Of a stretch of DNA of 64,000 bases, positions 15,555 through 43,860 are shown piece after piece. The position numbers and the translations under genes were made by a program. Source of the DNA: a virus. The DNA lies in the IMG/VR virus record IMGVR_UViG_3300044591_000896, positions 1 through 64,000 of that record. One strand, written 5' to 3'. Position 1 is the stretch's first letter. Each line of letters opens with the position of its first letter. The notes below the pieces were generated by a model, which was not told where the DNA came from, searched no databases, and saw nothing but the letters and a program-made list of their open reading frames with translations.

Positions 15555-15570
15555 TGTGATGTGCCTCACA
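15555..15570. promoter_or_regulatory. CRP/GlxR-type operator (perfect)
   Basis: TGTGA-N6-TCACA, centre 15562.5, 41.5 bp upstream of the TGTCAG box at 15604. Confidence 0.75.
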
Positions 15571-15603
15571 ATGTCCGAATTGCACCTTTTTTGAGTTGAT
15601 ATT

Positions 15604-15625
15604 TGTCAGACCCCCGTGTTATGAT
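15604..15625 (+). promoter_or_regulatory. TGTCAG-N10-extended -10 promoter, copy 1
   Basis: TGTCAG (15604-15609), ten bases, TATGAT (15620-15625) with TG one base upstream. Followed by ACGAAAGGAG before the 15663 ATG. Confidence 0.75.
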
Positions 15626-15662
15626 TTATATATAAAGAAAAACAAACGAAAGGAGTCAAAAA

Positions 15663-15818
15663 ATGACTCAACTTACAGAAACACTATTCTCAACAATAGT
15701 TCACGACTACCATAACGGCGGAGTAAAATCCTCATATGGATTAGATAACTACACACGCAAGGAAATCCTTGCCTACCTTATCCGCTCTAAGGGTTGCGAG
15801 TGCATAAACTGTCTGTGA
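15663..15818 (+). CDS. Small early protein with C-terminal CEC-INC motif
   Basis: 51 residues, ATG behind GAAAGGAG. Ends GCECINCL, a compact cysteine cluster. First gene of the plus-strand early region. Function unknown. Confidence 0.65.
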   Translation: MTQLTETLFSTIVHDYHNGGVKSSYGLDNYTRKEILAYLIRSKGCECINCL

Positions 15819-15829
15819 TAGACATCACA
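15814..15829. promoter_or_regulatory. CRP/GlxR-type operator (perfect)
   Basis: TGTGA-N6-TCACA overlapping the stop codon of the 15663 gene, centre 25.5 bp before a weak TGTCAT box at 15847. Confidence 0.65.
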
Positions 15830-15846
15830 CGCAATAGCCTTGCAAA

Positions 15847-15868
15847 TGTCATACTTATTTGATACCTT
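15847..15868 (+). promoter_or_regulatory. Weaker TGTCAT-N10-TACCTT promoter
   Basis: Same geometry as the TGTCAG family (ten-base spacing, TG before the -10) but with a mismatched box and -10. Upstream of 15903. Confidence 0.45.
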
Positions 15869-15902
15869 TATCTTATTGAACTACTAAAGAAAGAAGAAAC
15901 AA

Positions 15903-16094
15903 ATGTCATACTCATTCGATACTAATACAGCCTCTAAGTGGGATACCATTCAAGAAGATGTTGCCGATATGTACCTAGAAGATGTCGAAGAAACAGAAGA
16001 AGAAGATTTCTTCGGTTTCTCTAAGTCTATCGAAACAGACCACTTAACAGATGAACAGATTGACACACTACTAACTACTATCGATTGGAACTAA
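15903..16094 (+). CDS. Small acidic early protein
   Basis: 63 residues, very acidic (DVEETEEEDFFGF), preceded by AGAAAGAAG. Acidic mini-proteins are common in phage early regions, where some mimic DNA or bind host factors; no such role is shown here. Confidence 0.65.
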   Translation: MSYSFDTNTASKWDTIQEDVADMYLEDVEETEEEDFFGFSKSIETDHLTDEQIDTLLTTIDWN

Positions 16095-16098
16095 TCTA

Positions 16099-16269
16099 AT
16101 GACTATCACTTACTCAATTTGGCAAGGCTCTCGCTTACTATCTATCGACAATGTAGCGCATGAGGTTAAGGCTATTGACCACCTAATAGATTCGCTTAAC
16201 GATAGCGACCTAGGCAAGAAAACAAAATTCACCGCTAACATTCAAAACATAAAGGTAGGGGCTAACTAA
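16099..16269 (+). CDS. Small hypothetical protein
   Basis: 56 residues starting MTITYSIWQGSRLLSIDNVA. Linked to the next gene by a TAATG overlap. No domain recognised. Confidence 0.6.
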   Translation: MTITYSIWQGSRLLSIDNVAHEVKAIDHLIDSLNDSDLGKKTKFTANIQNIKVGAN

Positions 16270-16406
16270 TGACTATTGAACTAGATAACTATGGTTTCAT
16301 GCTAGATACAGAATGGTGCTATGTTGCACTATCATGGCAACTACTAATCACCACCGCCCTACTAGTAACCGCTTACAAGATTTACAAGAGAAAGAAGAAT
16401 AAGTAA
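16269..16406 (+). CDS. Small single-helix membrane protein
   Basis: 45 residues; hydrophobic helix WQLLITTALLVTAY followed by a basic KIYKRKKNK tail, predicting an inner-membrane protein with a cytoplasmic C-terminus. TAATG overlaps on both sides. Confidence 0.6.
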   Translation: MTIELDNYGFMLDTEWCYVALSWQLLITTALLVTAYKIYKRKKNK

Positions 16407-16558
16407 TGAGAAAATGCAAGATAGATGTATGCGATTCCACCGAATTAGTTTATAGCGGTGTAGATGCTTTCCTATTGGGTGTTCCTACAGAAACCTATTG
16501 CTATGAATGTTCTAACAATGGAGATGCACATAGAGAATTGCTAGAGGTTTCTAACTAA
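16406..16558 (+). CDS. Small zinc-finger-like protein
   Basis: 50 residues with CKIDVC and YCYEC, a two-pair cysteine arrangement. TAATG overlap with the next gene. Function unknown. Confidence 0.6.
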   Translation: MRKCKIDVCDSTELVYSGVDAFLLGVPTETYCYECSNNGDAHRELLEVSN

Positions 16559-16680
16559 TGAATAGACTATTAACTACTATCGTTCAACTATCTATTGCTA
16601 TCCCCGCCCTATACATGATGAGGATCGTGTATCATGATTTCAAGGCGGAGATGCGTGAGATGTGGCAAGAATCACACTAG
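16558..16680 (+). CDS. Small membrane-associated peptide
   Basis: 40 residues; hydrophobic N-terminal helix (LLTTIVQLSIAIPALYMM) then an amphipathic charged tail. Last gene of the TAATG-coupled chain 16099-16680. Confidence 0.55.
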   Translation: MNRLLTTIVQLSIAIPALYMMRIVYHDFKAEMREMWQESH

Positions 16681-16684
16681 CCTA

Positions 16685-16830
16685 ACGGCGTGTCGGCTTG
16701 ACATTGTCAAGCTGGCCCGCAAAGGCGCGGGGTCGGGCGTGTCGTTATGAACATGTTATAAAATCCCCTGAAATTTACGGCGTGTCGATTTGACAGACAA
16801 AACGGACATATTGGTGTGATGCTTATCACA
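16685..16830. repeat. Composite intergenic control module, copy A
   Basis: In order: CGGCGTGTCG, palindrome GCTTGACATTGTCAAGC, GGCCCGC hairpin, CCTGAAATTT (16767 on), CGGCGTGTCG again, and a perfect CRP-type site (16815-16830). The same blocks recur near 18.25, 19.45, 21.33, 22.65 and 24.93 kb. Confidence 0.7.
16815..16830. promoter_or_regulatory. CRP/GlxR-type operator (perfect)
   Basis: TGTGA-TGCTTA-TCACA, 57.5 bp (centre) before the TGTCAG box at 16880. Confidence 0.75.
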
Positions 16831-16879
16831 TGCGTTGAGCGTCTTACTATATGGACTTACTGGCTAGTAATGTCATAAA

Positions 16880-16901
16880 TGTCAGTCCCATCTGGTACAA
16901 T
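16880..16901 (+). promoter_or_regulatory. TGTCAG promoter, copy 2
   Basis: TGTCAG, ten bases, TACAAT with TGG directly before it. Leader contains CAACGAAAGAAGG before the ATG at 16935. Confidence 0.75.
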
Positions 16902-16934
16902 ACTCTTATAACAACAACGAAAGAAGGTCAATTC

Positions 16935-17054
16935 ATGAACCTAGATGAATTCCGTGCCCATGTAGAGGCAACCCGTCAAGCAAGCAAGGCAGAAGCCTTG
17001 TCAGTGCTATCTGCTACAATGTCCGTATCAACAACAACGAAAGAAGGTCGCTAA
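16935..17054 (+). CDS. 39-residue peptide overlapping the next promoter
   Basis: Begins MNLDEFRAHVEATRQASKAE. Its last ~20 codons coincide with a second TGTCAG promoter and leader (16999-17040), so the C-terminal TTTKEGR is encoded by the downstream gene's ribosome site. It may be a true small protein or a by-product of promoter duplication. Confidence 0.5.
   Translation: MNLDEFRAHVEATRQASKAEALSVLSATMSVSTTTKEGR
16999..17020 (+). promoter_or_regulatory. TGTCAG promoter, copy 3 (inside 39-residue ORF)
   Basis: TGTCAG, ten bases, TACAAT. The leader shares CAACAACGAAAGAAGGTC with copy 2. Drives 17054. Confidence 0.7.
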
Positions 17055-17260
17055 TGTCAGCGAATGTCTATAATGTCGAAAGCCTCTTAGTAGGTAAAAT
17101 GTATTACTCTAATTCAGTAAAGGGCGAGATTATCTCAGCCGAAAAAAATGATGATGTATGGTACTCAGGTGCAGATACATACAAGGTGCAAATTCGCCCT
17201 GTAAATTCTTTTGATTTCAAGGACACATACCGCTATGTAGCGGTGAAGGTTGGTGAATAA
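17054..17260 (+). CDS. Small hypothetical early protein
   Basis: 68 residues, beta-rich (VGKMYYSNSVKGEIISAEKN), resembling a small SH3-like barrel by strand pattern only. First gene of the 17054-17565 unit. Function unknown. Confidence 0.65.
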   Translation: MSANVYNVESLLVGKMYYSNSVKGEIISAEKNDDVWYSGADTYKVQIRPVNSFDFKDTYRYVAVKVGE

Positions 17261-17422
17261 ATGATAGATGTAATTGACTCAACCGAATTTTATTCGGTAC
17301 TAGATGAATCACACTTCTGCTGTGATGAAATGCAATTCCGTTATGTATGCAAGGCGCATGATGAATACATGGGTTGCTACTTTTGCGAATTTGATTACAA
17401 CAAAGAATGTGAGTGTGAATAA
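17261..17422 (+). CDS. Cysteine-rich zinc-binding-like protein
   Basis: 53 residues with seven cysteines (CC, VC, GCYFC, CEC), so one or two zinc sites are plausible. TAATG overlap to the next gene. Confidence 0.6.
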   Translation: MIDVIDSTEFYSVLDESHFCCDEMQFRYVCKAHDEYMGCYFCEFDYNKECECE

Positions 17423-17565
17423 TGGGATACATTGAGATTTTTAGAATGGATCAAAATGGTGCAGGTTGGGTAGATTTATCTGACGCTACCCCTGATGAAC
17501 TATTTACTATTGAGGTAGGGCTACTTAATGAGGGAGCCTTATTCCATACCCCCGAATCTGACTAA
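17422..17565 (+). CDS. Small hypothetical protein
   Basis: 47 residues, starts MGYIEIFRMDQNGAGWVDLS. No motif recognised. Its stop lies immediately before the next TGTCAG promoter. Confidence 0.55.
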   Translation: MGYIEIFRMDQNGAGWVDLSDATPDELFTIEVGLLNEGALFHTPESD

Positions 17566-17567
17566 TT

Positions 17568-17589
17568 TGTCAGACCCCTCTGCTACAAT
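17568..17589 (+). promoter_or_regulatory. TGTCAG promoter, copy 4
   Basis: TGTCAG, ten bases, TACAAT with TGC before it. Leader CACGAAAGGG. Drives 17618. Confidence 0.75.
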
Positions 17590-17617
17590 ACTCTAACAAC
17601 CACGAAAGGGAAAACCT

Positions 17618-17824
17618 ATGTACCAAATCTCTGTTTCATACGATAGCAAGCCTATCCATTTCAATAAAAACTATGTAGACGCTTTAGAGGCTTTTACCGA
17701 ATTCAACAAATTTGTTGATTGGGGTTGGGCTAATGAATACTCAACTGTAAATCTACAAATGCCAACTGGCAAAATGTATACACGCACATTTTATCGTGAA
17801 GGACGAAAGGTCGTAACAAAATGA
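17618..17824 (+). CDS. Small protein homologous to N-terminal half of the 42390 protein
   Basis: 68 residues. 'SVSYDSKPIHFNKNYVDALE', 'DWGWANEYSTVNLQ' and 'GKMYTRTFYREG' align with 'TIARDGESPVRSIYHLNNA', 'DWGFAKDYLTVSLH' and 'GKITTKVLKRP' of the 42390-42845 protein. Overlaps the next gene by 4 bp (ATGA). Function unknown. Confidence 0.7.
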   Translation: MYQISVSYDSKPIHFNKNYVDALEAFTEFNKFVDWGWANEYSTVNLQMPTGKMYTRTFYREGRKVVTK

Positions 17825-18006
17825 TGACACGCAAAGACTATGTAGCAACCGCAGAAATTCTAAAGTATGCAAGCGATAAAGCGCACCCCGCTTTATTTTC
17901 TAAAATGGTAAATGATTTTGCGGAAATGTTTGCAAAAGATAATCCGCGTTTTGATGTTGTGAGATTTCACGAAGCAAGCAATTACAAAGTAAAGGTAGGC
18001 AAATAA
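17821..18006 (+). CDS. Small protein homologous to C-terminal half of the 42390 protein
   Basis: 61 residues. 'DYVATAEILKYASDKAHPAL' and 'DFAEMFAKDNPRFDVVRFHE' align with 'DYIKAEEILLSVRPHLDPEI' and 'DFAGLFSRDNIRFDVSRFFK' at the end of the 42390-42845 protein. The two plus-strand genes are thus a split version of that single protein. Confidence 0.7.
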   Translation: MMTRKDYVATAEILKYASDKAHPALFSKMVNDFAEMFAKDNPRFDVVRFHEASNYKVKVGK

Positions 18007-18117
18007 ATGCAAATCGTTGAAATGTTTGTGTGTTCAGATTGTGAAGATTTCGGTGCAGTTTATATTGAAGGGAATGTGTTAAGTGTTAAAAGATGTGAAT
18101 GTATTGCAGAAGATTAA
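18007..18117 (+). CDS. Small zinc-knuckle-like peptide
   Basis: 36 residues with CSDC and RCECIAED. Start codon directly follows the previous stop. Function unknown. Confidence 0.55.
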   Translation: MQIVEMFVCSDCEDFGAVYIEGNVLSVKRCECIAED

Positions 18118-18214
18118 ACGAATTCAAGAATTGCGAAGATCAAATGCAGCAACCGCAATTCCTTCAAAGAAAAAATATTCACGAAAGCGCAAGCATAAAA
18201 ATTCAGAGTATTGA
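18083..18214 (+). CDS. Small basic protein
   Basis: 43 residues from a GTG with GAAGGGA upstream: MLKDVNVLQKIKRIQELRRS, ending in a Lys/Arg-rich KKKYSRKRKHK tail. Preferred over the ATG frame 18099-18284, which shows no protein-like composition. It may bind nucleic acid through its basic tail. Confidence 0.5.
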   Translation: MLKDVNVLQKIKRIQELRRSNAATAIPSKKKYSRKRKHKNSEY

Positions 18215-18221
18215 ATATTTA

Positions 18222-18300
18222 TGCGGCCCGCAATCTTTTGTGGGGGGCAAGTGTGAATTACGACACATTTTAAAAATCGCCTGAATTTTGCGGCGTGTCG
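18222..18300. repeat. Composite intergenic control module, copy B
   Basis: GGCCCGCAA, a near-match CRP site (18252-18267), TTACGAC, CGCCTGAATTTT (18278-18289) and CGGCGTGTCG. Confidence 0.65.
18252..18267. promoter_or_regulatory. CRP/GlxR-type operator (one mismatch)
   Basis: TGTGA-ATTACG-ACACA, 50.5 bp (centre) upstream of the TGTCAG box at 18310. Confidence 0.5.
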
Positions 18301-18309
18301 ATTATGATA

Positions 18310-18331
18310 TGTCAGTGGCCCATGGTATTAT
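18310..18331 (+). promoter_or_regulatory. TGTCAG promoter, copy 5
   Basis: TGTCAG, ten bases, TATTAT with TGG before it. Leader AACGAAAGG. Drives 18361. Confidence 0.75.
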
Positions 18332-18360
18332 TCTCTTAAATCTAACGAAAGGTCCAACTC

Positions 18361-18570
18361 ATGGAACTATTTACTGTTGCTTGCTTGAACTATGAAATTT
18401 GTGGCGATATGGCTACCTTTGATTCTGATTCAGAATATGAAATCTATGGCGATGATTATATCTGCGCTGAATGCTATGCGTCTGAGGAAATGGAATTCTT
18501 TGAAACTATAGGCTGGGCAGATTCAGACGCATTAGCGTCTGCAGGCCATGGAATGGATGAGGATTACTAA
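18361..18570 (+). CDS. Small acidic zinc-finger-like protein
   Basis: 69 residues. CLNYEIC and CAECYASEEMEFFE give two cysteine pairs; strongly acidic. One base separates its stop from the GP88 start. Function unknown. Confidence 0.65.
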   Translation: MELFTVACLNYEICGDMATFDSDSEYEIYGDDYICAECYASEEMEFFETIGWADSDALASAGHGMDEDY

Positions 18571-18571
18571 T

Positions 18572-19321
18572 ATGTCAGATCTAACCGCTATAATTACCCC
18601 TATGAAACTTAAACGGTCCAACGATAGAAAGGTGGCTAACCTTGTCACAAAAAATGGAAAGCAAGCAGCAATTGCTAACACATTCGGATTACCTGCAGGA
18701 AAAGACTATTCATGTCCTGGCGCTACGTCTATCTGCGAAAGTGTTTGCTACGCTGGCAAATTGGAAAAGCTCTTCCCTGGTGTAAAAACTAATCTTCTCC
18801 ACAATTGGGAGCTCTTACGCAATGCAGACATGGACACAATGCTCATTCTATTAGATGAGATGATTGTTGAATTTATTGCTGATTGTGAAAAGAAAGACGC
18901 TCCTAAATTATTCCGTATCCACTGGGACGGTGATTTTTTCAATGATACATATACATATGCGTGGAAAGTAATTATTACTAATCATCCTGATATTCAATTT
19001 TGGGTTTATACTCGTGTAAAGTCTGCAGCGCTTATTCTTAAGGATGTTGCTAACCTATCTCTTTATTATTCCACCGACGATGATAATAAAGAAATTGGTC
19101 ATGAGTTAAAAGTAAATGAAGGTATTCGCCTTGCATATCTTGGGAAGACTTTTGCCGTAACTGAGGGCACCATGAAAGAATTGACTGGCAAGCCTGGCGC
19201 TAAATGTCCTGAGAATATGAAAAGCATTCCACTTATTAGCAATGCAGGCTCTGCATGCGTGTCATGCGGTCTCTGCGTATATGGTAAAGCGGATGTTAGA
19301 TTTTCTGCGAGTAAAAAATGA
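18572..19321 (+). CDS. GP88-family phage protein
   Basis: 249 residues from the ATG at 18572 (upstream in-frame ATGs lie within the previous gene). Hallmarks are an N-terminal 'NGKQAAIANTFGLPAG' region, 'CPGATSICESVCYAGK' with conserved cysteines, 'FRIHWDGDFF' and 'FWVYTR', and a C-terminal CVSCGLC cluster. This is the GP88 family found in actinobacteriophages and related elements; the cysteines suggest an Fe-S or zinc centre, but the activity is not established. Confidence 0.8.
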   Translation: MSDLTAIITPMKLKRSNDRKVANLVTKNGKQAAIANTFGLPAGKDYSCPGATSICESVCYAGKLEKLFPGVKTNLLHNWELLRNADMDTMLILLDEMIVEFIADCEKKDAPKLFRIHWDGDFFNDTYTYAWKVIITNHPDIQFWVYTRVKSAALILKDVANLSLYYSTDDDNKEIGHELKVNEGIRLAYLGKTFAVTEGTMKELTGKPGAKCPENMKSIPLISNAGSACVSCGLCVYGKADVRFSASKK

Positions 19322-19413
19322 CGGATATACTAGGGGCAATTATTGGAGTCGGGATCTTAATCGGATTACTGGTCCCGCTTCCAATAATTATTTATACAAT
19401 ATTTAAACAATAG
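19318..19413 (+). CDS. 31-residue membrane peptide
   Basis: MTDILGAIIGVGILIGLLVP then PLPIIIYTIFKQ: nearly all hydrophobic. ATGA overlap with the GP88 gene. Confidence 0.55.
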   Translation: MTDILGAIIGVGILIGLLVPLPIIIYTIFKQ

Positions 19414-19460
19414 CGGCGTGTCAGCTTGACAAGATCAAGCTGGCCCGCAATGTTGCGGGG

Positions 19461-19469
19461 TTATCCACA
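19461..19469 (+). promoter_or_regulatory. DnaA box (perfect)
   Basis: TTATCCACA, 9/9 to the bacterial DnaA-box consensus. Confidence 0.65.
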
Positions 19470-19481
19470 GGGTTACGGGAG

Positions 19482-19490
19482 TTATCCACA
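19482..19490 (+). promoter_or_regulatory. DnaA box (perfect)
   Basis: TTATCCACA, same orientation, 21 bp after the first. Confidence 0.65.
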
Positions 19491-19502
19491 ATCCCTTGAA
19501 AT

Positions 19503-19518
19503 TGTGATTAATCTCACA
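19503..19518. promoter_or_regulatory. CRP/GlxR-type operator (perfect)
   Basis: TGTGA-TTAATC-TCACA, centre 41.5 bp upstream of the TGTCAG box at 19552, the same distance as at 15555. Confidence 0.75.
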
Positions 19519-19551
19519 AAAGCTGCGACACGCCGTAAATGGATTAGGTAA

Positions 19552-19573
19552 TGTCAGTGGCATAGTGTAAAAT
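19552..19573 (+). promoter_or_regulatory. TGTCAG promoter, copy 6
   Basis: TGTCAG, ten bases, TAAAAT. Leader AAACGAAAGG. Drives 19603. Confidence 0.75.
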
Positions 19574-19602
19574 ACTCTTATCAACCAAACGAAAGGCAAC
19601 AA

Positions 19603-19827
19603 ATGTCAAATGTAATCCGTGTTCCACACACAGTAGTATTCGAGGCTATTATTAACCTTGATACTATTCCTGCAAACCTACTACCTGCGCTAATTGCGCT
19701 TGATGAAGCAACAATGACTCAAATGTGCAAAGAAGCAACACTACACGCACTTGCTATGTCTAATGTATTACCACTTGCAAATGAAAATAATACTTGGGCT
19801 GAAGTAACTATCAAGGGAGATAACTAA
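19603..19827 (+). CDS. Small hypothetical early protein
   Basis: 74 residues with an amphipathic helix-rich core (PANLLPALIALDEATMTQMC). Behind an AAAGG leader. Two bases separate it from 19830. Function unknown. Confidence 0.65.
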   Translation: MSNVIRVPHTVVFEAIINLDTIPANLLPALIALDEATMTQMCKEATLHALAMSNVLPLANENNTWAEVTIKGDN

Positions 19828-19829
19828 TA

Positions 19830-20096
19830 ATGGGATACACAACAGCATTAGCATTAGAAGAAGAATTGTCTTTAGAGGCAGGACTTGCTTATCACTTGCA
19901 GGGTAATCATTACCCACCCGTTCCCGTCTCAATGGTGCAACCTTGCATAGACGCTATTGATGCGTTCTATGATGAGGATTTTGATCGTGAGATTAATTTA
20001 CCTGAAGGTATCTCTTGGCGAGGTAAAACTTCAGCACCCGCATCTGCCATAATTGATGCTCACCACTTAGACCCGTGGCTACCTGAGTGTGATTAA
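19830..20096 (+). CDS. Hypothetical early protein
   Basis: 88 residues, acidic, with GNHYPPVPVSMVQPCIDAID, a pattern seen in small phage proteins of unknown role. Its stop overlaps the CRP-type site at 20088. Confidence 0.65.
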   Translation: MGYTTALALEEELSLEAGLAYHLQGNHYPPVPVSMVQPCIDAIDAFYDEDFDREINLPEGISWRGKTSAPASAIIDAHHLDPWLPECD

Positions 20097-20103
20097 CCTC
20101 ACA
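20088..20103. promoter_or_regulatory. CRP/GlxR-type operator (perfect)
   Basis: TGTGA-TTAACC-TCACA, centre 46.5 bp before TGTCAG at 20142. Confidence 0.75.
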
Positions 20104-20141
20104 CAATAATTTTCTCAAATACTGAGATAGGGCTAGACAAA

Positions 20142-20163
20142 TGTCAGACCCCAATGTTATACT
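20142..20163 (+). promoter_or_regulatory. TGTCAG promoter, copy 7
   Basis: TGTCAG, ten bases, TATACT with TGT before it. Leader AAAGAAAAGAGG. Drives 20192. Confidence 0.75.
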
Positions 20164-20191
20164 ACCTACCTAACAAAGAAAAGAGGCAAAA

Positions 20192-20368
20192 ATGACAATC
20201 AACGACAAGTTGTATCAGGTTGGCGATTTATTCACCACCCTAAAGTCAAAGAAAACAGGTGTGATTAAGGAAATCCACCCACAGGCATCTGGCTCGGTGC
20301 GTGTGTTGCTAGAAATGCCAAACAAGGAAACTCGCTGGACTTCGGTATCAGCAAGCACTTTGGCATAA
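20192..20368 (+). CDS. Small hypothetical protein
   Basis: 58 residues, beta-rich: 'GDLFTTLKSKKTGVIKEIHP' and 'VRVLLEMPNKETRWTSV' resemble a small SH3-like barrel. Function unknown. Confidence 0.6.
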   Translation: MTINDKLYQVGDLFTTLKSKKTGVIKEIHPQASGSVRVLLEMPNKETRWTSVSASTLA

Positions 20369-20383
20369 AACTAAATAATCGAA

Positions 20384-20448
20384 ACAGGGGCAGTTTAAGA
20401 GAGTGTTCTCGCCCAATGTCGTAAGTAAGAACTCTCTCCCTTCGGGGA
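20384..20448 (+). other. Structured intergenic RNA element, copy 1
   Basis: GGGGCAG at the start, AGAGAGTGTTCT pairing with AGAACTCTCT, then CCC-TTCG-GGG. It resembles the element at 20933-21001 in its AGTAAG centre and CTCTCCCTT-NN-GGG end. Could be the 3' structure of the 20192 transcript. Confidence 0.4.
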
Positions 20449-20450
20449 AA

Positions 20451-20472
20451 TGTCAGACCCCCCTGCTATACT
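20451..20472 (+). promoter_or_regulatory. TGTCAG promoter, copy 8
   Basis: TGTCAG, ten bases, TATACT with TGC before it. Leader CAACGAAAGG. Drives 20510. Confidence 0.75.
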
Positions 20473-20509
20473 ATCCACTAACAACAACCCACCAACGAAA
20501 GGTAACACA

Positions 20510-20926
20510 ATGTCAAGAGCAATCACAGTAAAGGTGGCAACACCTAAAGTAATCAAGGCTTTGGAAACAAAGTTAGCAACAATCAAGAAGGACTATGCAG
20601 AGCAAGGTGCAAACGAGGCTAAGTATGAAAAGGCTCGTAAGGCTTGGCAGAAAGAACTTCAGGATTATGCAATCGCAAACATCAAGAAGTCAGAGAACCT
20701 TCGCACAAACTATCGTTCTTGGAATAACACACTCAACATTGACTTTGATTTGACAGTATCCGAAAAGGATTTGCCAAAAGAGCCTGAGCGTGATTTTACA
20801 GTTATGCACCAACACTCATACAATGAAATTGTAGAGGACATTACAAATGCTCTCACAATTCTAAAGATGACAGATGAGGAAACAGTAAATGCTTCTACAA
20901 TGAAGCAAATTGCTCGTTATCTCTAA
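20510..20926 (+). CDS. Hypothetical helical early protein
   Basis: 138 residues from the ATG at 20510 (the 20450 ATG lies in the promoter). Charged and helix-rich: 'VIKALETKLATIKKDYAEQG' and 'YEKARKAWQKELQDYAIANI' suggest a coiled coil. No enzymatic motif. Confidence 0.65.
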   Translation: MSRAITVKVATPKVIKALETKLATIKKDYAEQGANEAKYEKARKAWQKELQDYAIANIKKSENLRTNYRSWNNTLNIDFDLTVSEKDLPKEPERDFTVMHQHSYNEIVEDITNALTILKMTDEETVNASTMKQIARYL

Positions 20927-20932
20927 ATAATT

Positions 20933-21001
20933 TGGGGGGCAGAACTAAAGTCCTGAACCCAAACGACCTGAGTAAGTCGCCAAACTGCTCTCCCTTATGG
21001 G
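20933..21001 (+). other. Structured intergenic RNA element, copy 2
   Basis: GGGGGGCAG can pair with CTGCTCTCC over 9 bp (two wobbles), enclosing CGAC-CTGAGTAA-GTCG; CCC-TTAT-GGG follows. It lies in the leader of 21026, which has no TGTCAG promoter of its own. Confidence 0.4.
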
Positions 21002-21025
21002 ACAACTACTAACAAAGGTAATACA

Positions 21026-21286
21026 ATGGCAAATCGTTTTAGAGTTGAAATCTATGACGCAAACAAAATGAATGACATCACAATCTATTCAGATCAAGGT
21101 GTTGATAAAGAATACTTAACTGAATTAGTATTCAGCAACATCAGAAACTTTAGCGGAAGAGTTAATGCTTATGTTTTTGATAATGTAAAAAAGAAAAAGA
21201 CAACTGCATTATTTTTTGATGAGAAGACAGTTGAAAAAGTTAATTCAATTACACGTGGCTTAAAGAAAATGGAGTTGGGGTTATAA
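21026..21286 (+). CDS. Small hypothetical early protein
   Basis: 86 residues, alternating beta and helix (NRFRVEIYDANKMNDITIYS). Basic C-terminal half. Preceded by AAAGG. Function unknown. Confidence 0.6.
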   Translation: MANRFRVEIYDANKMNDITIYSDQGVDKEYLTELVFSNIRNFSGRVNAYVFDNVKKKKTTALFFDEKTVEKVNSITRGLKKMELGL

Positions 21287-21316
21287 ACCCCAGCTTCGCC
21301 CGCAATATTGCGGGGT

Positions 21317-21325
21317 TATCCACAG
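21317..21325 (+). promoter_or_regulatory. DnaA box (perfect)
   Basis: TTATCCACA directly after the palindrome at 21300. Confidence 0.65.
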
Positions 21326-21359
21326 GTTTACGACTGCTTGTGGAAAACGCCTGAATTTT

Positions 21360-21375
21360 TGTGAGATTACTCACA
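21360..21375. promoter_or_regulatory. CRP/GlxR-type operator (perfect)
   Basis: TGTGA-GATTAC-TCACA, centre 46.5 bp before TGTCAG at 21414, identical to the 20088/20142 pair. Confidence 0.75.
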
Positions 21376-21413
21376 TGGATCAAATCGGACAAATGACTAA
21401 CTAATCTAGACAA

Positions 21414-21435
21414 TGTCAGTGCCACCTGTTATAAT
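21414..21435 (+). promoter_or_regulatory. TGTCAG promoter, copy 9
   Basis: TGTCAG, ten bases, TATAAT with TGT before it. Leader ATCGAAAGG. Drives the DUF932 gene. Confidence 0.75.
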
Positions 21436-21467
21436 TGCTTAATCAACCAATCGAAAGGAATAAATCC

Positions 21468-22472
21468 ATGGCTCATAATCTAGAAATGGAAAATGGCGAA
21501 GTTGCATTTGCACTTCGTGGCGCACCTGCTTGGCATAATCTTGCCAATCGTATTTTCTCACAAGATGAGGAAGTAACTACACAATCTATGCTTGAAGAAG
21601 CAAAGTTATCAAATTGGAATGTTCGTCTATCTCCAATCACTGAGCACATTCCAGAATCTTGGAATGATGTATCTACTGCATCTCTTGTCATTCGTGATAA
21701 TCCATTCAATGGCGGAACTGATGTTCTTGCTACTGTTGGTAAGCGTTACAAGCCTGTGCAGAATGAAGAATTGTTTGCATTTGCTGATGCAATTCACGAT
21801 GCCAATGCTGATTGCCGTTGGGAATCTGCTGGCTCACTAAAGAAGGGCAAAGTTGTATTCGGTACTGTGGATATTCCTCGTACAATGGTTCTTGACCCAC
21901 AAGGTGCTAACGATGAAACTAAACTCTATCTAATTGTTTGGACATCACACGATGGTTCTGTTGCGGTGCAGGCTGCCGTTACTCCTGTTCGTGTTGTATG
22001 CCAAAACACTCTCAACCTTGCAATGAAAAGCGCAAAGCAATCTTTCAAGATTCGCCACACGCAATCTGTTGAAGGTCGCATTCAAGTTGCTCGTGAAACT
22101 CTTGGGCTTGCTCTTGGATACTTTGATGAATTCGAAAAAGAGGCTCAATCTCTTTACACTCAGGCAATTACTGATGCTGAATTCTCTAAGTTGATTCAGA
22201 CAATCTATCCAAAGCCTGAAAAGGATTCTAAGGGTGCGCTAAAGAAGTGGGAAAATAAGGTTGTTCTACTTGATGACCTTTATCATAACTCACCAACTAA
22301 CGCTACAATCAAGGGAACAAAGTGGGGCGCATTCAATGCACTTACTGAGCGACTTGATTACTATCGTTCAGGTCGTGGTAATTCTGAATCACTAATGGCT
22401 GGTGCATCAGGATTTGACCCTGTACTAACCGCAGAGAAAAATAAAATTCTCAAGTTAGTAAAATCATTTTAA
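21468..22472 (+). CDS. DUF932 / phage-plasmid-like protein
   Basis: 334 residues, starting MAHNLEMENGEVAFALRGAP then 'AWHNLANRIF'. The 'VGKRYKPVQNEELFAFADAI', 'SHDGSVAVQAAVTPVRVVCQ' and 'NTLNLAM' blocks identify the DUF932 family, widespread on phages and plasmids, with unknown biochemistry. Start 21468 follows AAAGGAA; an upstream ATG at 21435 lies in the promoter. Ends just before a strong terminator, so it forms a single-gene unit under TGTCAG copy 9. Confidence 0.88.
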   Translation: MAHNLEMENGEVAFALRGAPAWHNLANRIFSQDEEVTTQSMLEEAKLSNWNVRLSPITEHIPESWNDVSTASLVIRDNPFNGGTDVLATVGKRYKPVQNEELFAFADAIHDANADCRWESAGSLKKGKVVFGTVDIPRTMVLDPQGANDETKLYLIVWTSHDGSVAVQAAVTPVRVVCQNTLNLAMKSAKQSFKIRHTQSVEGRIQVARETLGLALGYFDEFEKEAQSLYTQAITDAEFSKLIQTIYPKPEKDSKGALKKWENKVVLLDDLYHNSPTNATIKGTKWGAFNALTERLDYYRSGRGNSESLMAGASGFDPVLTAEKNKILKLVKSF

Positions 22473-22483
22473 CTAAATGATTA

Positions 22484-22512
22484 ACGGGGGAGAGAAATCT
22501 CCCCCGTTTTAT
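22484..22512 (+). terminator. Rho-independent terminator after DUF932
   Basis: ACGGGGGAGA pairs with TCTCCCCCGT around GAAA; TTTTATTT follows. Ten-bp GC-rich stem. Confidence 0.92.
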
Positions 22513-22514
22513 TT

Positions 22515-22588
22515 GGTTCGTTAGCTTAGTTGGATAAAGCGCTACCCTGTCACGGTAGAGATCACGGGTTCAAGTCCCGTACGAATCG
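22515..22588 (+). tRNA. tRNA-Asp (anticodon GTC)
   Basis: Acceptor GGTTCGT/ACGAATC (one wobble), D stem GCTT/AAGC, anticodon stem CTACC/GGTAG with loop CTGTCAC, T stem ACGGG/CCCGT with TTCAAGT, discriminator G. CCA not encoded. It directly follows the terminator, so it may be transcribed by read-through. Confidence 0.92.
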
Positions 22589-22623
22589 CAATAAATATTT
22601 ATGCACATTCATGCATAATTATT

Positions 22624-22690
22624 CGCCCGCAATGTTAAGGGAAAATTTGTTGTGTTACGGATCACATAAAAAAAGCCCTGAAAACTATAG
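22624..22690. repeat. Composite intergenic control module, copy E (degenerate)
   Basis: CGCCCGCAATGTT, a CRP site with one mismatch (22651-22666), GTTACGG and GCCCTGAAAA. Confidence 0.55.
22651..22666. promoter_or_regulatory. CRP/GlxR-type operator (one mismatch)
   Basis: TGTGT-TACGGA-TCACA, 38.5 bp (centre) before TGTCAG at 22697. Confidence 0.5.
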
Positions 22691-22696
22691 ACAAAT

Positions 22697-22718
22697 GTCA
22701 GTGGGGTCCTGTACAATA
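22697..22718 (+). promoter_or_regulatory. TGTCAG promoter, copy 10
   Basis: TGTCAG, ten bases, TACAAT. Leader CAACGAGAGAGG. Drives 22747. Confidence 0.75.
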
Positions 22719-22746
22719 CTCCTATATAACAACGAGAGAGGTAAAT

Positions 22747-23172
22747 ATGTCAAATAGAACTAAAGGATATACTGGAACAATTGTTGACGGCAAGAAGCTT
22801 GCTGAAATTGCAAACGGTATTTATAATCTACAGTATAGCTCAGACTTTTCTGAGTGCACAGTAGATAATCTATTGTTCATTGAACTAGAAGAGAAGAATG
22901 TTTTTGGTGATCCAAAATATGCTCTTGTATGCTCAGAAGGTGTTGGTTGGGAACAAGATACATATGGTTGCTTGGAAGTCCCTACTAATATTGGACAAAT
23001 GGGCCTATGGAATGGACGTGTATTTATCTCAGTAGATACTGTTAAGTCTTGCCTTACTGATAAGACTGAGGATATATCAGATTACATTAGAGTCTTTGGC
23101 TCCCGCCTTGATTCTAACTGTTCCCTATGGCAATCCAAAATGTCAGTGGCCTCTGGTACACTAGCGATATGA
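22747..23172 (+). CDS. Hypothetical early protein
   Basis: 141 residues; 'GVGWEQDTYGCLEVPTNIGQ' and 'WNGRVFISVDTVKSCL' are compact beta-type segments. No known domain. Its last ~10 codons carry the next TGTCAG promoter, and its stop overlaps the following start (ATGA). Confidence 0.65.
   Translation: MSNRTKGYTGTIVDGKKLAEIANGIYNLQYSSDFSECTVDNLLFIELEEKNVFGDPKYALVCSEGVGWEQDTYGCLEVPTNIGQMGLWNGRVFISVDTVKSCLTDKTEDISDYIRVFGSRLDSNCSLWQSKMSVASGTLAI
23141..23162 (+). promoter_or_regulatory. TGTCAG promoter, copy 11 (intragenic, leaderless output)
   Basis: TGTCAG, ten bases, TACACT, then exactly six bases to the ATG at 23169: this member would give a leaderless mRNA. Confidence 0.65.
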
Positions 23173-23831
23173 CCAACGAACTCATATCAAGTAAGTATAC
23201 ATTTGTCTGTGACCCAGATGAATGCGACTCATTAATTGAATTAACATCCTCAGACGGATTTGGATTCCCGTCTGGTGTGATGGAACTCACATGTCCATGT
23301 GGCCGTAAGACTACCTTATTGTCAGTGGAGCATGCTACAATTGCACCTTCAAACCAAACGAAAGAGGAAACCATGGAAACAACAATTGGCTCAGATGCAT
23401 TCCACTCACCTGCAGTAGAATACAATCCTGATTTACTAGTTACATATAAAGTAATCAAGGGTTACTCTGACCCTGAATTCACAACATCAAAGGTTACCAG
23501 TCTTGAGTGGGACCTACACAATGGACGACAATCACAAAAGCGTGTTGGTCTTCTTGAATCTAACATTAACACAGTTAAAGATATTATTACTGAAGTTTAT
23601 TCAGACTCAGATGACCAAGATACACTTCGTTCAATCGCTGAAGCGCTTGGCATTGAATTAACTCGAACAGTTGAATTCACTGCAACCATTGAGGTTAGTG
23701 GAACAATTGACCTTAACTTACTTGAAGACTATGACTTCGAAACAGAAATCACAGATAATCTTTATGTTGATTCACAGAGTGGCAACATTGAGATTGGCGA
23801 TACTGAAATCTGTTATGTGAGGGAAGCATAA
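23169..23831 (+). CDS. Zinc-finger N-terminus continuous with an early protein (nested starts)
   Basis: 220 residues. Residues 1-55 hold CDPDECDSLIELT and CPCGRKTTLL, a small zinc-finger unit. The frame then continues without a stop through a full TGTCAG promoter, ribosome site and ATG (23373) into a 152-residue acidic protein with no recognised fold. The long form is a fusion; the short form could be made separately from 23373. Confidence 0.6.
   Translation: MTNELISSKYTFVCDPDECDSLIELTSSDGFGFPSGVMELTCPCGRKTTLLSVEHATIAPSNQTKEETMETTIGSDAFHSPAVEYNPDLLVTYKVIKGYSDPEFTTSKVTSLEWDLHNGRQSQKRVGLLESNINTVKDIITEVYSDSDDQDTLRSIAEALGIELTRTVEFTATIEVSGTIDLNLLEDYDFETEITDNLYVDSQSGNIEIGDTEICYVREA
23320..23341 (+). 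promoter_or_regulatory. TGTCAG promoter, copy 12 (inside the 23169 frame)
   Basis: TGTCAG, ten bases, TACAAT with TGC before it. Leader AAACGAAAGAGG before the in-frame ATG at 23373. Confidence 0.7.
23373..23831 (+). CDS. Short form of the nested gene (internal start)
   Basis: 152 residues in the same frame as 23169-23831, beginning METTIGSDAFHSPAVEYNPD. It has its own promoter and AAAGAGG site 7-8 bases upstream, so it is probably the main product. Contains 'TVEFTATIEVSGTIDLNLLE', a beta-rich domain. Function unknown. Confidence 0.6.
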   Translation: METTIGSDAFHSPAVEYNPDLLVTYKVIKGYSDPEFTTSKVTSLEWDLHNGRQSQKRVGLLESNINTVKDIITEVYSDSDDQDTLRSIAEALGIELTRTVEFTATIEVSGTIDLNLLEDYDFETEITDNLYVDSQSGNIEIGDTEICYVREA

Positions 23832-24043
23832 TGTATTTTGAACTTACTGCTCCATCTCAGGTAGCCTTTGCACGGGCTACCTGGGAAGCGGAGTTGATTG
23901 GGTTGGACCCAATGACAATTGCACCATTGACTTTCAATATCGGAACTGGTAGTATTGAGAAGGTAAGTCGTATTCGTGATAAGTATAATCTAATAGAATC
24001 ATACACATCAGACTACGAGCCAACAGGATACACAGGGAGATAA
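23831..24043 (+). CDS. Small hypothetical protein
   Basis: 70 residues: MYFELTAPSQVAFARATWEA. TAATG overlap with the upstream gene. No domain. Confidence 0.6.
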   Translation: MYFELTAPSQVAFARATWEAELIGLDPMTIAPLTFNIGTGSIEKVSRIRDKYNLIESYTSDYEPTGYTGR

Positions 24044-24044
24044 T

Positions 24045-24191
24045 ATGTCAGACTACAGAGATGGCTTTGATGACGGTTACAAATTTGGTCGTGAAGAACT
24101 AATTGAAAAACTAAGAGAGATTGATATCTCAGATATCGATTCTTGGTTAGTTGATAAGTTAGCAGACATGATCGAAGGTAACGAGATATGA
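24045..24191 (+). CDS. Small acidic protein
   Basis: 48 residues; starts MSDYRDGFDDGYKFGREELI, the 'GFDDGYxxGR' pattern common in small phage proteins. ATGA overlap to 24188. Confidence 0.6.
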   Translation: MSDYRDGFDDGYKFGREELIEKLREIDISDIDSWLVDKLADMIEGNEI

Positions 24192-24382
24192 GTTGGATTG
24201 CATGCGATAAGTGTGGAGATTCAGCCCAAGCTAAATGGATAATTAAATTAGTTGAAGGCGAACTATACTTCTGTGGTCACCATAAAAATAAATATGAGGC
24301 GGGCCTTGCCAAGGTCTCATATGAAATGATAGAATTAGACAAGGTCGAAGAAGTACTACTACTAGAAGAGGCGGAAATATAA
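24188..24382 (+). CDS. DUF7455-like zinc protein
   Basis: 64 residues. CDKCGDSAQAKW ... GELYFCGHHKNKYE is the CxxC/CGHH zinc site of the small actinobacterial DUF7455-type family, often carried by actinophages. TAATG overlap with the next gene. Role unknown. Confidence 0.75.
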   Translation: MSWIACDKCGDSAQAKWIIKLVEGELYFCGHHKNKYEAGLAKVSYEMIELDKVEEVLLLEEAEI

Positions 24383-24780
24383 TGGGAGATAGAGCAAACT
24401 TCGGATTTAGACAGAGCAATGGCGATGTTATTGTTTTGTACGGTCACTGGGCTGGACATGAGATGCTAGCACAATTAGCAAGCGCTGTTGATGCGGCACG
24501 TCCTCGCTGGACCGATGAGGGATATGCAACACGTATTGCTATTTCTCAACTCGTGGGCCAAGACTGGGAGTCGACAACTGGTTGGGGAATTTATATTAAT
24601 ACAATTCCTGACAATGAGCACAAGATTCCTGTAATCGATTGGCGCAGTGGGACCTTTAGTCTTCATGAGGAAGCATCCTATGATGAAAGCACAAAGGTCC
24701 ATGGCATGTCAGATGAACCAATGTTTTCACAAACACTGGATGCATTTGTAAATAAATATTCCTTGGTGCTTTCTAAGTAA
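24382..24780 (+). CDS. Conserved phage hypothetical protein
   Basis: 132 residues beginning MGDRANFGFRQSNGDVIVLY, with 'YGHWAGHEM' and 'DWESTTGWGIYINTIPDNEH'. Proteins with this start are recurrent in actinophages; no function is assigned. Last gene before copy F of the control module. Confidence 0.7.
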   Translation: MGDRANFGFRQSNGDVIVLYGHWAGHEMLAQLASAVDAARPRWTDEGYATRIAISQLVGQDWESTTGWGIYINTIPDNEHKIPVIDWRSGTFSLHEEASYDESTKVHGMSDEPMFSQTLDAFVNKYSLVLSK

Positions 24781-24883
24781 CACGGAACCATATGGTGCCT
24801 CTATCAGTCATTAAATGGCCAGGGGTTAAATAAAGCAGAGTTCTTTTACTTTCGTTGGTGATACTCTAGCAGCCTATATAATA

Positions 24884-24983
24884 GCTTGACAAATCATGAT
24901 CTGGCCCGCAAAAACATAAGGGTAACATATTTTGTTTACGAGGTCAATTTAAAATCGCCTGAAATTCTGTGATCTTGACCACA
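24884..24983. repeat. Composite intergenic control module, copy F
   Basis: AGCTTGACA, TGGCCCGCAAA, TTTACGA, ATCGCCTGAAATT and a near-perfect CRP site (24968-24983). The preceding 100 bp (24781-24883) hold nothing coding. Confidence 0.6.
24968..24983. promoter_or_regulatory. CRP/GlxR-type operator (one mismatch)
   Basis: TGTGA-TCTTGA-CCACA, 53.5 bp (centre) before TGTCAG at 25029. Confidence 0.55.
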
Positions 24984-25028
24984 TGCATACAAAATGTGGT
25001 GTGGAACACACCCAAATAGTATTCCATT

Positions 25029-25050
25029 TGTCAGTGGTCCAGTGTATAAT
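25029..25050 (+). promoter_or_regulatory. TGTCAG promoter, copy 13
   Basis: TGTCAG, ten bases, TATAAT. Leader AAACGAAAGG. Drives 25079. Confidence 0.75.
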
Positions 25051-43038: not shown

Positions 43039-43345
43039 CTGGCACTCCCTCTAATTCGCATCTAACACCATAGGACTCTATGATATTTTTAACCATCTCA
43101 ACATATTCTATTACTCTTAATTTCATTGAACCGTCGTACTGACTAAAATTATCTTCGTATAACCTTATTGCTAAAAACTCTGGATACTTTACTATATCCA
43201 TTATTAAATTAGAGGCAGGCTTTTTTAATTCCCGCAATTTTGATGCCATCTCTTTTGAATAGAATACTGGCTTGTTTGGCTCACCAGTCCATTGGTTTAT
43301 GCCATACTTAAAGTGATCTTTACCATTGTTCTTATCAATAAACAT
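43022..43345 (-). CDS. Hypothetical protein
   Basis: 107 residues, 'MRVIEYVEMVKNIIESYGVR'-like helices; 'QWTGEPNKPVFYSKEMASKL'. Overlaps 43335 and 42838. Unknown. Confidence 0.6.
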   Translation of the reverse strand: MFIDKNNGKDHFKYGINQWTGEPNKPVFYSKEMASKLRELKKPASNLIMDIVKYPEFLAIRLYEDNFSQYDGSMKLRVIEYVEMVKNIIESYGVRCELEGVPGERKS

Positions 43346-43646
43346 GTTTAGCCTTCAATCTTTTCCACACTTCTTTTGTTTTATGTGAGTTTCTGACCTT
43401 GTCAATAGAACCAGAATTTAAATAAACTCCACCCCATACTCCATAGTCATTATTATTAATTCCGTTTTCATAACATATAGCTATAACTGGGCAAGAAAGA
43501 CATGCCTCATCAATTGTCCTAGCTATATTTATATCTGACTCATACTTATCAAAAAATAGATTTGTGTCCATACCTAGGCATAAAGCAAGCTTATACCAAT
43601 TTGGATCTTCTTCTTCTATACCTAGATTACTTAAAATACTTGACAT
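43335..43646 (-). CDS. WhiB-family transcriptional regulator
   Basis: 103 residues from the ATG at 43646. Four cysteines C23, C49, C52 and C58 (CLSCPVIAIC) for a [4Fe-4S] cluster, then YGVWGG (68-73) and a basic C-terminus, the full WhiB layout restricted to actinobacteria and their phages. WhiB proteins bind sigma region 4 to redirect transcription. Longer in-frame starts overlap the 43627 gene and are not needed. Confidence 0.92.
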   Translation of the reverse strand: MSSILSNLGIEEEDPNWYKLALCLGMDTNLFFDKYESDINIARTIDEACLSCPVIAICYENGINNNDYGVWGGVYLNSGSIDKVRNSHKTKEVWKRLKAKHVY

Positions 43647-43860
43647 ATTTTTTAGGCAGCTTCCAGATACCTTTACCGTTGACAGAAATTTTTTCTGCCT
43701 TACCCCATTGATTATCATGGAACATGCCACTTGTATCTGAGTAGCCGTTGTAATCTTTTTTCCAGATAACTAAATCATAATTATCCCAAAAAGATTTTTG
43801 AACTTTTGTTTGAGATCTGTTTATAAATATCTCAACGCCTTGCATTGTTAAATGAAGCAC
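43627..43860 (-). CDS. Hypothetical protein
   Basis: About 77 residues from GTG 43860 (AGGA upstream); an ATG at 43845 is also possible. The longer frame would run into tRNA-Asn. Contains 'GVEIFINRSQTKVQKSFWDN' and 'DYNGYSDTSGMFHDNQWGKA', a small phage AP2/HNH-like fragment by look only. Overlaps the WhiB start. Confidence 0.5.
   Translation of the reverse strand: MLHLTMQGVEIFINRSQTKVQKSFWDNYDLVIWKKDYNGYSDTSGMFHDNQWGKAEKISVNGKGIWKLPKKYVKYFK

Follow-up and report, generated by a model that had tools for sequence, protein, structure and literature searches.

The regulator GlxR of Corynebacterium glutamicum provides the closest described parallel to the sites considered here. GlxR recognizes the consensus TGTGA-N6-TCACA in a cyclic AMP (cAMP)-dependent manner, sites closer to the consensus show more binding and promoter activity, and ldhA is activated from such a site (PMC7999487). 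Class I activation by CRP in Escherichia coli follows a periodicity of about 10.5 base pairs (bp), is strongest at -61.5, -71.5/-72.5 and about -82.5, and is lost in between (PMC6301791). The stretch analyzed here (the window) comprises 64,000 nucleotides, positions 1 to 64,000 of the 115,479-base virus record IMGVR_UViG_3300044591_000896, and its plus-strand early region carries the same CRP-type dyad ahead of many predicted promoters. With a probability of about 0.72, judged from sequence, these dyads are operators for a CRP/GlxR-type regulator of the host and serve as upstream activator sites in immediate-early promoters.

CRP-type dyads and promoters of the early region

A motif scan of the window detected seven perfect TGTGA-N6-TCACA dyads (Table 1), all confined to the plus-strand early region between 15.5 and 23.3 kb. 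Dinucleotide shuffles of the 64 kb contained 0.13 such dyads on average and two at most, and none of 100 shuffles reached seven. No further perfect dyad was found in the rest of the record, and a reversed-pattern control yielded no match across its 115 kb. These results bear out most of what a sequence-only reading had claimed for this region. All six perfect sites that it had located are present (a seventh, 23276-23291, had been overlooked), and its three near matches at 18252, 22651 and 24968 are genuine one-mismatch sites; another such site lies at 16661. Matches with up to two mismatches occur at chance frequency in the whole window (36 versus 40 expected), so that single near matches count only through their conservation and position. 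The asserted restriction to the plus-strand early region extends to the whole record, the comparison with shuffles confirmed the enrichment, and the proposed CRP/GlxR consensus is exactly that of GlxR (PMC7999487). The distances given between dyad centre and TGTCAG box stood for two pairs of sites, 41.5 bp (15555, 19503) and 46.5 bp (20088, 21360), followed by 57.5, 50.5, 37.5, 53.5 and 36.5 bp. The dyad at 15814 has a degenerate TGTCAT in place of the box.

The plus-strand early genes are headed by the pattern TGTCAG-N7-TGn-TAnnnT, which corresponds to an extended -10 element whose spacer holds a conserved box. These elements are predicted to be promoters, with start positions derived from the sequence. 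Some contain a TTGACA- or TAGACA-like hexamer 17 bp ahead of the -10, and the -35 is weak in most promoters that bear a CRP site. TGTCAG itself was rejected as the -35 hexamer, as it lies only 10 bp from the -10 and is, in some promoters, just preceded by -35-like hexamers at the 17-bp spacing. Dyad and box are separable, since the promoter at 20451 lacks a CRP site in each of its 75 orthologues. Hairpin-like repeats (CTTGACA..TCAAG, GCCCGCAA..TTGCGGG) stand ahead of many early promoters (16683-16733, 19411-19461, 21298-21332 and 22625-22640) and are probably terminators that insulate each early unit.

Helical phasing and conservation across the clade

The spacing between dyad and promoter was analyzed in 536 non-redundant TGTCAG promoters, for which a fixed promoter pattern was used, only perfect dyads were counted and redundancy was judged by 8-mer overlap, with no tree. 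A half-site spacer of 6 was found in 137 perfect dyads, compared to a single dyad for the remaining spacers between 2 and 10 taken together. The gaps between dyad and TGTCAG fell mainly at 17-19, 27-29, 37-39, 47-49, 58-61 and 70-71 bp among 136 perfect sites. The best period was 10.25 bp (nR2 = 65.6), and the maximum in 2,000 controls jittered by up to 5 bp was 10.8. These 136 non-redundant sites thus lie upstream of the -35 at helically periodic distances, as expected for class I sites. Orthologous promoters differ by whole turns as well: the gap is 18, 28 or 38 bp at the gene of the 20142 type, 28, 38 or 48 bp at promoters of the 16880 type and 28 or 38 bp at another promoter. Whole-turn shifts within one orthologous promoter indicate that the pattern goes beyond common descent alone, and natural variation shows the spacing between a predicted activator site and its promoter evolving by whole turns.

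Relatives were collected from IMG/VR with the DUF932 protein, which retrieved 80 close loci, and then with L093, a 110-kb phage of the same clade (CAINGU010000031.1, 109,918 bases), which added 63 more distant ones. Two or more perfect sites, along with 6-17 promoters, were found in every one of the 80 close loci, and at least one perfect site is present in each of 45 distant loci (L105-L149), so that perfect sites were detected in 125/125 loci of the CRP-site clade. The dyads come as arrays of 4-10 per phage. Across 54 distinct sequences of the DUF932 promoter, conservation is 96-100% in the half-sites and averages 68% in the left flank, a contrast somewhat inflated by preselection of the sample for at most one mismatch. 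Only one perfect site was found among the 18 loci L150-L167, whose DUF932 proteins are at most 56% identical to that of L093. TGTCAG promoters are kept in many of these loci and the GACACGCC element described below in several. This sister clade either lost the CRP sites or never acquired them, and its retention of TGTCAG promoters indicates that the promoter design is older and the CRP layer lineage-specific. Eight one-mismatch sites were found in one of its loci, L165, which is possibly an intermediate.

All viral contigs were also scanned for the combination of dyad and promoter, which returned at least 120 stretches versus 6 with reversed half-sites. At least 25% translated coverage is shared with the clade by 116 of the 119 examined loci and by none of the 6 controls. 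By these scans, the dyad-promoter architecture characterizes a single phage lineage and is no feature of phages in general. No description of CRP sites in phages of such kind was found in a literature search that mostly did not reach subscription papers.

Table 1. Predicted regulatory elements and selected genes of the window
Feature	Position	Strand	Remark
Perfect CRP-type dyad TGTGATGTGCCTCACA	15555..15570	+	33 bp upstream of TGTCAG promoter 15604, out-of-phase class
TGTCAG-N7-TGn-TAnnnT promoter	15604..15625	+	
Perfect CRP-type dyad	15814..15829	+	no TGTCAG box; degenerate TGTCAT at 15847, 17 bp on
GGCGTGTC element	16779..16786	-	more copies at 16687, 16736, 19415
Perfect CRP-type dyad	16815..16830	+	49 bp upstream of TGTCAG promoter 16880, in phase
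TGTCAG promoter with CRP site	16880..16901	+	
One-mismatch CRP-type dyad	18252..18267	+	42 bp upstream of promoter 18310
GGCGTGTC WhiA-core-like element	18292..18299	-	GTGTC 15 bp before TGTCAG
TGTCAG promoter with CRP site and GGCGTGTC element	18310..18331	+	
Perfect CRP-type dyad	19503..19518	+	33 bp upstream of promoter 19552; GACACGCC in between
GACACGCC WhiA-core-like element	19527..19534	+	fits GAYACRCY; 25 bp before TGTCAG
TGTCAG promoter with CRP site and GACACGCC element	19552..19573	+	
Perfect CRP-type dyad	20088..20103	+	38 bp upstream of promoter 20142, in phase
TGTCAG promoter with CRP site	20142..20163	+	
TGTCAG promoter without CRP site	20451..20472	+	0/75 orthologues carry one
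Perfect CRP-type dyad	21360..21375	+	38 bp upstream of DUF932-gene promoter 21414; 81/81 orthologues at 37-38
TGTCAG promoter of DUF932 gene, with CRP site	21414..21435	+	
DUF932 gene	21468..22472	+	query for collecting relatives
One-mismatch CRP-type dyad	22651..22666	+	29 bp upstream of promoter 22696, in phase
TGTCAG promoter with near-match CRP site	22696..22717	+	
Perfect CRP-type dyad	23276..23291	+	28 bp upstream of promoter 23320, in phase
TGTCAG promoter with CRP site	23320..23341	+	
One-mismatch CRP-type dyad	24968..24983	+	45 bp upstream of promoter 25029
Two-mismatch dyad	24995..25010	+	in-phase 18-bp gap to promoter 25029; one-mismatch site there in many orthologues
TGTCAG promoter with near-match CRP sites	25029..25050	+	
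WhiB-family gene	43335..43718	-	outside early region

Predicted regulator and competing explanations

Profile searches of the whole record detected neither a cyclic nucleoside monophosphate (cNMP)-binding family nor a Crp-type helix-turn-helix (HTH), and the cNMP-binding family was likewise absent from all 22 relatives searched. The sequence-only reading had seen no crp gene in the window, which agrees with these searches, and a phage crp gene located outside the window was rejected on the same grounds. The lack of a phage CRP gene leaves CRP/GlxR of the host as the likeliest binder. The early region, a counterpart of the terminal-repeat early region in Streptomyces phages, would be transcribed from many separate promoters of the type (weak -35)-TGTCAG-N7-TGn-TAnnnT, about half of them with an upstream dyad kept to a single helix face. 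The host regulator would occupy this dyad within the first minutes of infection and contact RNA polymerase, e.g. its alpha C-terminal domain, and this contact would make up for the weak -35. We infer that host CRP binds, that it activates rather than represses and that it does so in dependence on cAMP or nutrient state. Phasing of this sort would be expected from a stereospecific activator that acts much like class I CRP.

Several observations weigh against this interpretation. A half-turn class with gaps of 33-34 bp accounts for 12 of the 136 sites and a few more lie at 41-46 bp, neither of which fits a single helix face; the centre distances of 41.5 and 46.5 bp (gaps of 33 and 38 bp) belong to the out-of-phase and the in-phase class, respectively. 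Sites with gaps of 33-34 bp mostly have GACACGCC or TGTCCG between dyad and box, which suggests a different protein arrangement there. With the -10 hexamer set at -12, the predicted site centres are -54.5, -64.5, -74.5 and -84.5, about 3 bp off the E. coli optima, and thus do not coincide with the class I positions -61.5, -71.5/-72.5 and -82.5. Activation in E. coli is much weaker about 3 bp from the optima (PMC6301791). The offset may reflect the true start site, another polymerase contact or a factor bound to TGTCAG. Because the centres lie off the E. coli positions, the claim is limited to promoters that would work like class I and does not extend to the E. coli type. Many TGTCAG promoters have no dyad, the host is known only as an actinobacterium, the promoter starts are predictions, and the phasing shows an interaction and not its sign.

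The binder might instead be a phage-encoded regulator of a new family that reads TGTGA-N6-TCACA and times the early genes, its likeness to CRP being convergent. Such a DNA-binding protein could hide among the small early proteins, most of which have no known family, and the TGTCAG box, for which no binder is known, shows that unidentified factors are at work. This explanation is considered unlikely, given that the match to CRP is exact in both sequence and spacing and that the cNMP and Crp-HTH searches described above were negative. In addition, the Streptomyces relatives have these early genes in terminal repeats, so that they would be needed before phage proteins exist. Comparably doubtful is repression or delay of the early genes by host CRP, for example in a starving host. 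The sites, one per promoter, stand at -54.5 and beyond, which is clear of the core promoter and the usual place of CRP activation, and many independent repressor sites would be of little benefit to a lytic phage that lacks a gene for the regulator. CRP/GlxR proteins can act either way, and phasing also arises from repressors that contact polymerase or form loops.

A non-regulatory role of the dyads as replication, packaging or genome-structure repeats is very improbable. The DnaA-box-like TTATCCACA and other repeats do occur in the same intergenic regions, but the dyads are tied to promoters, hold a fixed phase to -10 and TGTCAG and are each kept before their own gene, and no loss of the phasing was seen. 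An origin by chance or from AT-rich sequence would agree with the chance-level frequency of two-mismatch matches; it is already refuted by the shuffles (7 versus 0.13), by the phasing and by the reversed-half-site controls (at least 120 composite stretches versus 6).

In a large family of actinobacteria-infecting lake viruses, CRP/GlxR-type sites stand at whole-turn distances ahead of the first genes. This placement suggests that the virus turns on its early genes through the nutrient-state regulator of the host itself. The usual view of lytic phages is that they begin transcription from strong, unregulated promoters. If many of the first promoters of this clade are indeed wired to the global cAMP regulator of the host, the outcome of infection would be tied to the nutrient state of abundant lake actinobacteria, and viral lysis could be related to the supply of carbon by direct test. 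WhiA also emerges from the arrays as a possible second regulator of the host; its partner WhiB is encoded by many actinophages.

Further elements, phage identity and comparison with known systems

The top enriched 8-mers upstream of the promoters were GACACGCC (143 occurrences, 0.82 expected) and its shifted form CGACACGC (139, less than 1 expected), and anagram controls were rare. The exact GACACGCC 8-mer is found in the window genome only in the early region (Table 1). Its position relative to TGTCAG is fixed, with GTGTC at -15/-14 or GACAC at -25/-26, just upstream of the -35. WhiA sites contain GACAC within the broader core GAYACRCY (PMC3781837, PMC11701221), and WhiA and WhiB act together in Streptomyces (PMC6282962). 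GACACGCC matches GACAC and the core at all eight positions and lies close to the promoter, which makes it a candidate element for WhiA as a second host regulator; no WhiA gene was found in the phage. The sequence-only reading had therefore caught one layer of the design, as TGTCAG promoters occur without CRP sites and the WhiA-like GACACGCC is at least as prominent. One tentative possibility is that the promoters are composite logic gates for host physiology, built from phased CRP/GlxR dyads for cAMP and carbon state, WhiA cores, TGTCAG and, in some cases, DnaA-box-like elements, which the phage WhiB retunes later, and that CRP was added in one lineage onto an older WhiA/TGTCAG design.

The DnaA-box-like TTATCCACA lies at 19461-19490 and 21315-21325 of the window. 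Loci L013-L092 (1.33 Mb) contain 320 copies on one strand compared to 94 on the opposite one, and most of them precede TGTCAG by 90-98 bp. DnaA may act at the early promoters, or an origin may be located there. A third positioned element, ATGTCCGATTT (15572-15577 and related promoters), stands 23 and 32 bp before TGTCAG. Its reverse complement, CGGACA, recurs upstream of early genes of the Streptomyces phage NootNoot, and ATGTCCGATTT is thus possibly the oldest part of the early-promoter design.

Profile searches identified RecA, DNA polymerase III alpha, class II ribonucleotide reductase, portal, head protease, GP88, DUF932 and WhiB. The nearest named phages are the Streptomyces Samistivirus (Stanwilliamsviridae), with 44-45% identity in the head maturation protease and 51-52% in the DUF932 protein, and the gene order in the vicinity of transglycosylase, glycosyltransferase, ribonucleotide reductase and the early block is the same as in NootNoot. 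A Megablast comparison of the early region with named phages gave zero matches. Judged by shared structural and early genes, gene order and WhiB, the phage is a Stanwilliamsviridae-like freshwater actinophage distantly related to Samistivirus. The Streptomyces phages have the DUF932 gene twice per record, close to the genome ends, and a distant relative (L159, L160) has it close to both contig ends, which indicates that the early block is terminally repeated in relatives; it presumably enters the cell first. WhiB is encoded by the phage and by 22/22 relatives tested, and in the literature whiB counts as a gene of actinobacteria alone and as a marker of actinophages (PMC10202952, PMC6802176), which points to an actinobacterium as host. 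A scan of genome contigs returned one match, L093, binned in a public cyanobacterial metagenome-assembled genome. This placement is probably a binning error, and a cyanobacterial host was rejected since all tested phages carry the actinobacterial marker WhiB. A literature search on CRP in Nanopelagicales returned nothing useful.

Samistivirus NootNoot resembles the phage in its syntenic early genes (DUF932 51%), in separate promoters after terminators and in CGGACA-type elements; in contrast, its early region contains neither perfect TGTGA-N6-TCACA nor a comparable array of TGTCAG promoters. Mycobacteriophages of Cluster K also place a conserved short element, the SAS, before many non-structural genes, and about half of these have an additional upstream inverted repeat (ESAS) kept gene by gene (PMC3203893). 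The sequences are, however, unrelated to those found here, and the ESAS are 17-bp repeats that adjoin a start-codon element and match no known host regulator named by the authors (PMC3203893). WhiA sites share with GACACGCC the core at all eight positions, the location just upstream of a putative -35 and the occurrence in both orientations (PMC3781837, PMC11701221), whereas WhiA/WhiB promoters are, as far as found, known from cells alone, and WhiB of the phage is encoded outside the early region. The lac-type class I promoters of E. coli likewise combine one upstream dyad, whole-turn steps, a weak -35 and a periodicity of about 10 bp (PMC6301791); in the phage, the phase is shifted by about 3 bp, TGTCAG lies in the spacer and a minority class is half a turn off. 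Compared to the GlxR/CRP operators of C. glutamicum, the phage dyads belong to the early region of a virus, form arrays of 4-10 beside TGTCAG and have a predicted binder, but they share with these operators the same TGTGA-N6-TCACA consensus and the same upstream placement.

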